A DNA stretch of 43,478 nucleotides from Deltaproteobacteria bacterium. Lineage in GTDB: Bacteria; Calditrichota; Calditrichia; RBG-13-44-9; J075. Both the position numbers and the translations under genes were made by a program. The notes under the pieces are model-generated. The model was not told where the DNA came from, did no database searches, and worked only from the letters and a program-made list of their open reading frames with translations. The stretch is taken from positions 1 to 43,478 of the forward strand of contig WYBG01000401.1 in assembly GCA_011526015.1 (NCBI GenBank), given 5' to 3'. The first letter of the stretch is position 1; the number at the start of each line of letters is the position of its first letter. This document shows, one piece after another, positions 9,717-19,469 of the stretch.

Positions 9717-10882
9717 CCGTTACCTCCGATTAATATTTGCGTGCTCGCACTCTTCCCCAACCACGATTTTACCTCATTCAGAATGATTTCAATGTATGAA
9801 GGCTCTTTTTCGATCAAAACAAAACGCCGGCCTGATTTTACGGCCGCTTTTCCGGTAGTACCGATGCCCGCAAAAGGATCGAGAACCACGTCTCCTTTGA
9901 ATGAATAATAAGCGATGACTTTTTCTGCCAGCTCTAACGGGAATATGGCCGGATGCCTTTTATCATGGGCGGGTTTGATTTTCCAGACGTTGGTTTTTTC
10001 ATATTCATCATCGATTCGGGACTGCTTGACGATCTCCGGTTCAGGGTGGGCGCGAATATTCCAATCAATCAGCTTATCGCTCTCCTTGCGGTAAACCAGG
10101 ATATATTCCGTAACCGGCACGGGTTTGTACTGTAACGGATTCCGGTCGGCTGCAAACCGCCGCCCTCTCCCGGTGGCCCAGCCGGCGCCTTCCGGTTTTA
10201 CCCAGATAATGTCATCCACAAATTCATACCCTTCTTCGATAAAAAGCCGGTGCATGTCAAAAGGAACCGCGATCCTTTTGGATGACTGATTTCGATGGCT
10301 TCTTCGGATCAATACCGGCGAAACATTCATCACGAAAAAACGCCCTTCGGCTAAAATGCGATGTACTTCCCGGATGATTTTGCGAATCTTTAAAAGATAC
10401 TCTTCATAATCGAGGTAATCGTTGTATTCAGGGCGAGCATTAAAATAGGGCGGCGAAGTGAATACTAAATCTATAGATTGAGCGGGCAAATCTTGAAGTA
10501 TCTCTTCACTATCGCCTGAAGCGATGGTATTTCGTAAACTCGATAATGTGTATTGTCCGTTCCTTTTCTTTTTTTTCTTTGCCAAAGAATCATTTCGACC
10601 CAGTAAACGCGCTTCCAATGTATTTGCATCGGTTGATTTATCTTGAAGTATTAACGAGGTTCTGGCGTCGATTACAATTTCCCCCACGTGCTCCTGGCTG
10701 GTTTTATGAAGGATCGGAACCCGCCACACATGATAGCGATCATCAATTTCCGGCAACCCAAAATCGATTGCATTTTCCAATTGCGCTCTTTTAAGCCAGA
10801 CAAACGCCACCTCTTTGGCGGATTGCACGTTTATCACCGAATAATTCCGCCGTTCGGCGACGGTTTTATTTGCAGGCTTCAT
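9698..10882 (-). CDS. Beta-class DNA methyltransferase with SPPY motif, R-M island 2
   Basis: 394 residues. Motif IV is LVFTSPPYFNARPEY (about 139-153) and motif I, VVLDPFAGIGTTGKAA, is at about 332-347, followed by RRFVLIEKEPSY. This is beta-class order, and the SPPY variant is typical of, though not exclusive to, N4-cytosine enzymes. Residues 1-110 form an extra N-terminal domain (KEVAFVWLKRAQ ... VGEIVIDARTSLILQ) and a Lys-rich linker that I do not recognise. It is first in the order methyltransferase, 41-aa ORF, Dam-like gene, purC, all overlapping. The cognate nuclease appears lost, so the enzyme may act as an orphan methylase. Confidence 0.85.
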   Translation of the reverse strand: MKPANKTVAERRNYSVINVQSAKEVAFVWLKRAQLENAIDFGLPEIDDRYHVWRVPILHKTSQEHVGEIVIDARTSLILQDKSTDANTLEARLLGRNDSLAKKKKKRNGQYTLSSLRNTIASGDSEEILQDLPAQSIDLVFTSPPYFNARPEYNDYLDYEEYLLKIRKIIREVHRILAEGRFFVMNVSPVLIRRSHRNQSSKRIAVPFDMHRLFIEEGYEFVDDIIWVKPEGAGWATGRGRRFAADRNPLQYKPVPVTEYILVYRKESDKLIDWNIRAHPEPEIVKQSRIDDEYEKTNVWKIKPAHDKRHPAIFPLELAEKVIAYYSFKGDVVLDPFAGIGTTGKAAVKSGRRFVLIEKEPSYIEIILNEVKSWLGKSASTQILIGGNGWAINL

Positions 10883-16521: not shown

Positions 16522-18150
16522 ATGGCCAGTCATGCAATCGTCGAAACGACGCATGAAGAAAATTATCTTCAGTATAAAGGACGGCATGGCGGTTTATGGT
16601 CCTGGATCTTCTCCACCGACCACAAACGCATTGGCATCCTTTATATGATCGGAATGTTTGCCTTTTTCGTCGTCGCTATTACCCTGGGGCTTCTCATGCG
16701 CCTGGAGCAGCTTACCATGGGCCCCACCATCATGCAGCCTTCGACCTATAACAAGGTTTTCACCCTGCACGGGGTGATCATGATTTTTCTGTTCATCGTT
16801 CCGGGAATTACCGCCACCTTCGGCAATTTCTTCCTGCCCATTCAGATCGGGGCCAAGGACGTGGCCTTCCCGCGCCTGAACCTGTTCTCCTGGTGGCTTT
16901 ACGTCATCGGGGCGGTCACGGCGCTGGTGGCCGTGTTTACCGGCATGGCCGACACCGGCTGGACCTTTTACGTTCCCTACAGCGTGCGCACCGGCACTAA
17001 CGTTACCCTGGCGGTGCTGGCCGCGTTTATCCTGGGATTTTCATCCATCCTGACCGGGTTGAACTTCGTCACCACCGTGCACCGGATGCGCGCCCCGGGA
17101 ATGGGCTGGTTTCGTATGCCCCTGTTCGTCTGGGGATTGTACGCCACCGCCTGGATCCAGGTGCTGGCCACCCCGGTGGTGGGGATCACCTTATTATTGA
17201 TCATTCTGGAAAGAACCCTGGGCATCGGGATTTTTGACCCGGCGCTGGGCGGCGACCCCATCCTCTATCAGCACCTGTTCTGGATTTACTCCCATCCGGC
17301 GGTGTACCTGATGGTACTGCCGGGCATGGGAGTGGTTTCGGAAATCATTCCCACGTTTGCGCGGCGAAACATTTTCGGCTACAAAGCCATCGCTTACTCC
17401 AGCGTGGGCATCGCCCTGGTGGGAACCCTGGTGTGGGGCCACCACATGTACACCAGCGGCCAGAGCTATACCGCGGCCGTGGTGTTCTCCTTCCTGACCT
17501 TTCTGGTCGCCATTCCCACCGCCATTAAAGTGTTCAACTGGGTGGCGACTCTCTATAAGGGATCGATCCGGGTGGAATTGCCGCTATTATACGCCATGGC
17601 GTTTATTTTCCACTTCTCCATCGGCGGGTTTACCGGGCTGATGAATGCCGCCATCTCCGTGGACGTGCACATTCACGATACCTACTTCGTGGTGGGGCAC
17701 TTTCATTATACCATGTTCGGGGGAACCGTGTTTGCCATGTTCGGGGCGCTCTATTACTGGCTGCCCAAAATGTTCGGCAGAATGTACGGCCAGAAGATCG
17801 GCATCACCGCGTTTGTCTTGCAGGTCATCGGTTTCAATATGCTCTATTTCACCATGATGGTGATGGGCTACATGGGCATGCCCCGCCGCTATTACGATCA
17901 CCTGCCCCAGTTCCATGACGGCCACATCATCGCCACGGTCGGCTCCTGGTTCCTGGTCGCGGGTTTGTTCCTGATGATCGGAAACCTGGTCTGGTCGGTC
18001 TTCAAAGGTGCGAAAGCGGAAGATAATCCCTGGGGCGGAACCACCCTGGAATGGCAAATCCCCTCTCCGCCGCCCCTGGAAAACTTTGATAAAATTCCCC
18101 AGGTGGAGCGCGGGCCGTACGAACATACCCCCGTGGAGGTGAGCAAATGA
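16522..18150 (+). CDS. ctaD: Cytochrome c oxidase subunit I (heme-copper oxidase, A2 type)
   Basis: About 542 residues with twelve or more membrane helices, the catalytic subunit reducing O2 to water and pumping protons. Metal ligands by sequence: low-spin heme His83 (TLHGVIMIF), CuB His258 with cross-linked Tyr262 in YSHPAVY, CuB His307/His308 (WGHHMYTSG), heme a3 His393 and heme a His395 (VGHFHYTM). The K-channel Lys is in IPTAIKVFNW. YSHPxV instead of xGHPEV places it in subfamily A2, which lacks the D-channel glutamate. The start at 16522 is chosen because AAGGAG lies 9-10 nt upstream; an in-frame ATG at 16501 lies inside sco. The stop overlaps the subunit III ATG. Confidence 0.96.
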   Translation: MASHAIVETTHEENYLQYKGRHGGLWSWIFSTDHKRIGILYMIGMFAFFVVAITLGLLMRLEQLTMGPTIMQPSTYNKVFTLHGVIMIFLFIVPGITATFGNFFLPIQIGAKDVAFPRLNLFSWWLYVIGAVTALVAVFTGMADTGWTFYVPYSVRTGTNVTLAVLAAFILGFSSILTGLNFVTTVHRMRAPGMGWFRMPLFVWGLYATAWIQVLATPVVGITLLLIILERTLGIGIFDPALGGDPILYQHLFWIYSHPAVYLMVLPGMGVVSEIIPTFARRNIFGYKAIAYSSVGIALVGTLVWGHHMYTSGQSYTAAVVFSFLTFLVAIPTAIKVFNWVATLYKGSIRVELPLLYAMAFIFHFSIGGFTGLMNAAISVDVHIHDTYFVVGHFHYTMFGGTVFAMFGALYYWLPKMFGRMYGQKIGITAFVLQVIGFNMLYFTMMVMGYMGMPRRYYDHLPQFHDGHIIATVGSWFLVAGLFLMIGNLVWSVFKGAKAEDNPWGGTTLEWQIPSPPPLENFDKIPQVERGPYEHTPVEVSK

Positions 18151-18938
18151 GCCAGCATACCGAATCAGTCGTGGCGCACAAACACCCCAGCGACTTCGTG
18201 GGCGCTAAAATTGGGATGTGGTTATTCCTGTTCACGGAAGTGCTCCTTTTTGGCGGGTTATTTTTGCTCTACGCCGTTTACCGCGCCAAATACCCGGTAG
18301 ATTTTCACCTTGCGGCAACGGAGCTGGATACCTTCATCGGGACGGTAAACACCCTGTTGCTGCTCACCAGCAGCTTGACCGTGGTGCTCTCCATCGAAGC
18401 CCTGCAGCGGGGGAACCGCAAGCTCTCTATCGGGATGTTGGCGACGACCATCCTCTTCGGGCTGGGGTTCATGGTCAACAAGTATTTTGAATGGGGCCAC
18501 AAGATCGAACACGGCCTTTATCCCGGCTCGGAGAAGCTGCTGTCCCACAGCCAGGGTGAAATCACTTTCTTTCAACTCTATTACGCCATGACCGGCCTGC
18601 ACGGGCTGCACGTGCTGGTAGGGATGGCCGTTCTGGGAGGAGTGCTCTATTTCATTGCCCGCAAGCCGGTGAATAAAGAGCACATGAACCCGACTATTCT
18701 CAGGCGCTTCCAGGGCGCGGCCCGCCTGGCGGTTATTTCCGATAACGGCAACGAATTGGGTACCGTGGCGCGCATCGACGAGGACGTGCGCAACATAGAT
18801 ATTCGGATTTCTTATGAACACGGGGAGAAGCGTTTCGATCCCCGCAATTTAATCAAGTTAGAAAACTCCGCCCTGTATTGGCACCTGGTGGACGTGATCT
18901 GGATTTTCCTGTTCCCGCTGTTTTATTTGATTACCTGA
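18147..18938 (+). CDS. ctaE: Cytochrome c oxidase subunit III with an extra soluble insertion
   Basis: 263 residues. The family core is clear: KIGMWLFLFTEVLLFGGLF, then TVNTLLLLTSSLTVVLS, FEWGHKIEHG, YYAMTGLHGLHVLVGM and the last helix YWHLVDVIWIFLFPLFYL. This subunit stabilises subunit I and sustains proton uptake. Between the penultimate and last helices, residues about 180-240 form a non-membrane stretch (RLAVISDNGNELGTVARIDED ... in part) that subunit III normally lacks; it looks like a small beta domain. The ATG overlaps the subunit I stop (ATGA). A 155-bp block of hairpins follows in the operon. Confidence 0.93.
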   Translation: MSQHTESVVAHKHPSDFVGAKIGMWLFLFTEVLLFGGLFLLYAVYRAKYPVDFHLAATELDTFIGTVNTLLLLTSSLTVVLSIEALQRGNRKLSIGMLATTILFGLGFMVNKYFEWGHKIEHGLYPGSEKLLSHSQGEITFFQLYYAMTGLHGLHVLVGMAVLGGVLYFIARKPVNKEHMNPTILRRFQGAARLAVISDNGNELGTVARIDEDVRNIDIRISYEHGEKRFDPRNLIKLENSALYWHLVDVIWIFLFPLFYLIT

Positions 18939-18940
18939 AA

Positions 18941-19095
18941 GGAGTGCATCTCCGAAGGCCGGGATGCACTCCACGACTCGTTCACCCGCTCTGCGGGTGA
19001 ACGCCGCTGATGGCGCTCTGCGCCGAGTCGTAACGTGACGCGATGCAGAGCATCGCGTAGTGCGTTCCAACGGAGACCGTTGGAACGAGAACGTT
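18941..19095. repeat. Cluster of nested palindromes inside the cox operon
   Basis: Three units stand back to back. (1) GGAGTGCATC at 18941-18950 pairs with 18963-18972. (2) An outer stem ACGACTC/GAGTCGT (18973-18979/19025-19031) encloses two hairpins, TTCACCCGC-tct-GCGGGTGAA and GGCGC-tct-GCGCC. (3) An outer stem AACGT/ACGTT (19032-19036/19091-19095) encloses CGCGATGC-aga-GCATCGCG and the 11-bp CGTTCCAACGG-aga-CCGTTGGAACG. All four inner hairpins have a three-base TCT or AGA loop. It separates subunit III from subunit IV. Confidence 0.85.
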
Positions 19096-19133
19096 CTGCG
19101 TAACATCAGCTTGTAATATTCAAGGAGATGAGC

Positions 19134-19469
19134 ATGCAACACGAACATCATGATCCTGCCGCCCATGAACAGGCCCTGCACGGGCTGGGTTACGGCATTT
19201 ATATATTGATTTGGATCGGGCTGGTGGTTTTGACCGGGGTGACCGTGGCGATTGCCGGGGTGGACGTGCGGCAATTGGCGGTGCTGGTGGCGATGCTGGT
19301 GGCCAGCGTCAAATCTACCCTGGTGATGGCCTATTTCATGCACCTCAAGTATGAGCCGCCGGTATTCCGGTGGATGTTCCTGGTTCTGCTGGTCACTTTT
19401 GCGATTTTTATGATTCTGTTGTTCTCCGATGTTTTATTCAGATCCTCTCCGAATGTATTGTTCGGATGA
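19134..19469 (+). CDS. Cytochrome c oxidase subunit IV family protein
   Basis: 111 residues with three membrane helices: YGIYILIWIGLVVLTGVTVA, LAVLVAMLVASVKSTLVMAYF, and FRWMFLVLLVTFAIFMILLF. A His-rich N-terminus (MQHEHHDPAAHEQ) precedes them. VKSTLVMAYFMHLKYE is the signature of the bacterial caa3 subunit IV (CoxF/COX4_pro type). It supports assembly and stability of the oxidase. I prefer the ATG at 19134, because AAGGAG ends 7 nt before it, whereas the ATG at 19128 directly abuts that site. Confidence 0.88.
   Translation: MQHEHHDPAAHEQALHGLGYGIYILIWIGLVVLTGVTVAIAGVDVRQLAVLVAMLVASVKSTLVMAYFMHLKYEPPVFRWMFLVLLVTFAIFMILLFSDVLFRSSPNVLFG

Follow-up and report, generated by a model that had tools for sequence, protein, structure and literature searches.

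A folded spacer in a Calditrichaceae cytochrome oxidase operon probably holds a left-truncated copy of a miniature inverted-repeat transposable element

Introduction

Miniature inverted-repeat transposable elements (MITEs) of bacteria, e.g., Correia/NEMIS, RUP, ERIC and YPAL, are non-coding, strongly folded elements of less than 200 bp that are scattered mostly over intergenic positions. They are bounded by terminal inverted repeats and target duplications, and for most of them the autonomous partner is not known (PMC2229807). Repetitive extragenic palindromes (REPs) and bacterial interspersed mosaic elements (BIMEs), which go with REP-associated tyrosine transposase (RAYT) genes, are intergenic paired palindromes with compensatory changes (PMC2817692, PMC3733652), and transposition of the RAYT/IS200 type is not known to yield terminal inverted repeats or larger target duplications (PMC2817692). 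Our search for literature on miniature inverted-repeat elements in Calditrichota found only one general insertion-sequence survey. Here we describe a block of hairpins (155 bp, 18941-19095) between the genes for cytochrome oxidase subunits III and IV on contig WYBG01000401.1 of a Calditrichaceae genome (positions 1 to 43,478, the window). The block consists of two adjoining things, a single palindrome (hairpin 1) and a MITE copy. The family of this copy is dispersed in the genome, between genes and in both orientations, with terminal repeats, target duplications of 6-7 bp and clean empty sites in a relative; with a probability of roughly 0.87, 18973-19109 is a left-truncated copy of such a non-autonomous DNA transposon. 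The family is new and well supported, ordinary in kind and of modest interest.

Full-length copies share with the described MITEs the traits listed above, being likewise non-coding and below 200 bp, but the element is not A+T-rich inside, carries four separate hairpins in two pairs instead of one long stem, and has a 7-bp rather than a TA duplication and ends without a TA motif. YPAL of Yersinia is similar in size (~168 bp), palindromic and not A+T-rich, with target duplications and known empty and filled sites, yet its inverted repeats are internal and its duplications span 3 to 26 bp, whereas the repeats here are terminal and the duplications ~7 bp long (PMC2229807). The likeness to REPs and BIMEs lies in the paired intergenic palindromes with compensatory changes and in the ends of hairpin 1, which recur in palindromes around RAYT genes of this genus; the main block differs in its terminal inverted repeats, its 6-7 bp duplications and the lack of an adjoining RAYT gene, and the GTAG head of REPs was not found at its hairpins. 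The search for a sequence link to known MITE families covered Rfam, plasmids and phages: an Rfam 15 scan of the window gave nothing above gathering score, and the full element had no homologues among plasmid and phage sequences.

Results and discussion

A dispersed family with defined ends and target duplications

A genome search for further units, proposed by the initial annotation of the block, found matches at 18 places in its own genome (the block itself counted, two of them overlapping), corresponding to about 17 loci. Full-length copies measure 156 bp and run from CTGATGTTACGCA to its inverted copy TGCGTAACATCAG. This terminal inverted repeat of 13-14 bp occurs at 117 sites of the genome with at most one mismatch, compared with 1 for the reversed control, and is found exactly at 82 sites in a same-genus relative genome (G001, taken to be Calditrichaceae bacterium MAG_33) and in 7 out of 60 related genomes, nearly all of the same family. 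The same ends also enclose other interiors of ~120-340 bp, typically CACAGAG-rich or of the GGGATAAATCCC type. Paired ends less than 600 bp apart gave 75 intervals, some few of which overlap or are nested. In 49 of the 75 a duplication of 6-8 bp was recognisable (with one mismatch allowed from 7 bp upwards), and 38 of these duplications are 7 bp long. The duplications are usually A/T-rich, many start with TTA, and most full copies have one of 6-7 bp. Furthermore, 16 of the 17 copies are intergenic according to a crude open reading frame call, and they lie in both orientations beside unrelated genes. An apparent nesting was also seen in G001, where one element with these terminal repeats lies within another and the outer one is flanked by an 8-bp duplication, TTAAATCA (L233, C113, 4302-4728).

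Terminal repeats together with a duplication of near-fixed length are the marks of a DDE-type transposase, and both traits in this family thus indicate such an enzyme. The intact element of ~156 bp, in which the terminal repeat closes a palindromic interior made up of two outer stems, each around a pair of hairpins, was presumably moved in trans by cut-and-paste, and the autonomous copy may have been lost, left unassembled or diverged. Loci with PF01609 were considered as the autonomous parent and rejected because their ends differ; NF033593 was rejected as well, as it gave a single match below the family cut-off.

Empty sites in a relative and the oxidase spacer

Eight four-hairpin copies were compared with G001 through their joined flanks. 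The cleanest empty site was that of L002, where G001 has a single CTTATAA and the own genome has the element between two CTTATAA; the sites of L003, L010 and L011 are empty in G001 also, and that of L004 probably so, while at L005, L006 and L016 the element is missing in G001 but divergence of the spacer prevents a clean reading. In the oxidase operon, MAG_33, whose flanking genes are ~92% identical, carries a III/IV spacer of ~65 nt without the element, and the five deeper relatives with a readable spacer (L115, L116, L117, L156 and L167) have ~10-20 nt, again without it. The insertion is therefore lineage-specific, or was lost in MAG_33. The element probably landed in the spacer after the split from MAG_33.

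These comparisons bear on the suggestion of the initial annotation that the block is well placed to set mRNA processing and the stoichiometry of the oxidase subunits. An evolved riboregulator native to the operon could be imagined from the strong fold between two oxidase subunit genes, but the same spacer lacks the block in MAG_33 and the five deeper relatives, many copies lie elsewhere in the genome, and no Rfam family corresponds to it. Intergenic copies in either orientation, beside unrelated genes, and the absence in relatives argue against a dedicated role in oxidase stoichiometry, and a conserved riboregulator was rejected because of this absence and the lack of an Rfam match; we regard a native regulator as extremely improbable, and the suggested function was not upheld. 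Overall, a striking RNA-like structure can have entered a core respiratory operon by recent insertion, which calls for caution: relatives should be compared before such folded blocks are called riboregulators. What Calditrichota gain here is a well-documented MITE family with ends, 7-bp duplications and empty sites, and the own genome and MAG_33 form a natural pair, with and without the insertion, for its effect on the operon mRNA.

Several observations weigh against the assignment of the window copy to a MITE. This copy keeps its right terminal repeat and lacks the left one, in whose place hairpin 1 sits; because the left repeat is missing, a target duplication of its own is not demonstrable, and the CTTGTAA at the expected position has no matching duplicate remaining on the left side. 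We infer that the left end was lost after the insertion and that an unrelated REP-like palindrome, hairpin 1, came to lie there. Additionally, the MAG_33 spacer is unrelated in sequence, so that the oxidase site does not offer a clean empty/filled comparison and the ancestral site is not exactly reconstructable. A search of few transposase families in a fragmented assembly (624 contigs, 88% completeness) found neither a transposase nor an autonomous element with these ends, and none of the intervals between terminal repeats in G000, G001, G003, G005 and G006 enclosed a long element; several contigs end within elements bearing the terminal repeat, which, together with the fragmentation, means that an autonomous copy may have died out or may be missing from the assembly. 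Finally, some copies in G001, such as L252, L255 and L258, combine these four hairpins with outer ends of another kind, and the hairpin modules are thus not strictly bound to one terminus.

Anatomy of the block and its position in the operon

Sequence and folding agree with the coordinates and anatomy first assigned to the block, a simple hairpin followed by two outer stems with two hairpins each and inner loops TCT or AGA (Table 1), except that its right boundary had been placed 14 bp short, since the terminal repeat of the element extends to 19109. The predicted fold is far more stable than expected by chance, with z = -7.8 as RNA and z = -10.8 as DNA, and none of the 200 dinucleotide shuffles was equally stable in either case. 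The second, weaker outer stem is present in the DNA centroid and missing from the RNA minimum-energy structure.

Table 1 Features of the III/IV spacer and the flanking genes in the window.
Feature	Position	Strand	Basis or detail
Cytochrome oxidase subunit III gene	18147..18938	+	PF00510; upstream of the block
Hairpin 1, GGAGTGCATC...GATGCACTCC	18941..18972	.	Probable REP-like unit of a second repeat family
Probable MITE copy, left-truncated, four hairpins	18973..19109	+	Own-genome copies, alignment, terminal repeats and duplications of other copies
First outer stem, ACGACTCG/CGAGTCGT	18973-18980 pairs with 19024-19031	+	Folding, 17-copy pair counts; unit 18973..19031
Hairpin A	18980-19002		Within first outer stem; loop TCT
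Hairpin B	19012-19024		Within first outer stem; loop TCT
Second, weaker outer stem, AACGT/ACGTT	19032-19036 pairs with 19091-19095	+	DNA centroid, pair counts; unit 19032..19095
Hairpin C	19039-19057		Within second outer stem; loop AGA
Hairpin D	19063-19087		Within second outer stem; loop AGA
Right terminal inverted repeat of the MITE, CTGCGTAACATCAG	19096..19109	-	Exact match at 19097-19109 (genome-wide search)
CTTGTAA, expected target-duplication position	19110..19116	.	Read from the sequence; position inferred from other copies
Cytochrome oxidase subunit IV gene	19134..19469	+	PF03626, TIGR02229 (caa3 type); downstream of the block

The operon also contains SCO1, subunit I, subunit II and a UbiA-family gene. 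The subunit IV gene has a further in-frame ATG at 19128, and its ribosome-binding site AAGGAG (19122-19127) lies beyond the right edge of the MITE copy. In the oxidase mRNA the inserted copy would fold very stably, and this is most likely a passive result of the insertion and not the work of an evolved regulator. A secondary effect, compatible with a MITE insertion, is nevertheless conceivable as a tentative proposal, in that the block may change how the oxidase mRNA is processed or translated, or how stable it is, e.g., as a target of RNase III or RNase E between III and IV. The position inside the operon and the very stable fold predicted for the sense strand are in line with this, and effects have been argued for ERIC and NEMIS transcripts (PMC2229807), but the insertion is recent and lineage-specific, the ribosome-binding site of subunit IV is outside the element, and no U tract follows the hairpins in the sequence.

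Conservation of the hairpins and possible exchange of modules

In the alignment of 17 copies, 91% of the cells in the named structure pair, compared with 87% in shuffled alignments and 24-39% in slid structures, where the scored structure was derived from one aligned sequence and thus favours the named over the slid structures. Changes on both sides occur in 10 of 59 pairs, and pairing differs among the parts, from 71% for the second outer stem to 91-98% for hairpins C and D. The hairpins are conserved, but the pairing data do not tell whether this is as DNA or as RNA; self-correction of palindromes in replication, or a need to fold in transposition, would be expected to leave the same trace. 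A model built from this alignment (R1) gave 44 matches in the own genome and 28 in G001, where the two strands of a palindrome are scored as separate matches, plus 6 weak matches in two other genera.

It is possible, though rather unlikely, that the folded interior is itself under selection. Paired modules with fixed TCT/AGA loops and compensatory changes would then be kept since single-stranded folding is needed for spreading, and modules swapped between elements with different ends would constitute a modular, palindrome-carrying transposon superfamily of Calditrichaceae. Architectures of a similar kind were seen in another genus, where L256 and L259 (G005, C266, ~9982-10114) show 84-bp units repeated in tandem, each of which contains two hairpins (GAGGCAGAGCCTC and CGCTCCAGCGCAGAGCACTGGAGCG, then AGTAGTAG). 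At a PF01609 locus of G006 (L202, C23), 42-bp inverted repeats at 1230-1271 and 2692-2733 start with CTCGTTCCCA and resemble the foot of hairpin D; a link between these repeats and the hairpin modules is possible.

Hairpin 1 and the RAYT genes

The palindrome of hairpin 1 has no second copy with up to 3 mismatches, and its ends agree with those of a small GGAGTGCA...TGCACTCC family. The own genome has 4 places (hairpin 1 included), and G001 has 5, with a palindrome that shares the 8-bp ends of hairpin 1, compared with 0 for the control. A search for RAYT genes, also proposed by the initial annotation, was successful in both genomes (NF047646 above cut-off), and among the parts of the block only hairpin 1 resembles the repeats around these genes: in G001 (L301) a palindrome with its ends lies ~170 bp upstream of the RAYT gene match among several truncated versions, and in the own genome (L299) the RAYT gene is surrounded by similar truncated palindromes. 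The shared part is the 8-bp ends, while the middle differs. As to the GTAG or GTGG head that adjoins the stem of a REP, GTRGGAGTGCA is weakly enriched in the own genome (10 versus 4 controls), and a GTGG at hairpin 1 is found on the minus strand only, and only by overlapping the stem. With moderate confidence, we assign hairpin 1 to a second mobile family, probably as a REP-like unit.

The original proposal had gone further, in that the block as a whole may be a REP/BIME-like element moved by a RAYT (Y1, IS200-like) transposase. A mobile palindromic repeat with many copies is what we found, so that the refuting case of no other copy did not arise; the agent is where the proposal fails. In its favour, palindromes that share the ends of hairpin 1 lie around the RAYT genes of the own genome and of G001, the paired palindromes with compensatory changes are BIME-like, and the four-hairpin cores of G001 occur with different outer ends. 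However, hairpins A-D flank none of the 19 Y1-type loci inspected across five genomes, and the main block is bounded by terminal inverted repeats and by target duplications of 6-7 bp. For the main block a RAYT-driven BIME was rejected because of its terminal repeats, its target duplications and the neighbourhoods of the Y1 genes, for the block as a whole this origin is improbable, and the RAYT idea fits hairpin 1 at most.

Several GTGCAAAAC...GTTTTGCAC palindromes, of which some carry a GTAG head, surround the two RAYT genes (L301, G001, C50, 746-2133; L299, own genome, C187, 1205-1925) and make them REPtron-like units in Calditrichaceae. In another genus of the family, a Y1-type gene was observed amid repeated GTTGGGTTACGCTGCGCTAACCCAAC palindromes (L288, G003, C212, 1197-2105).
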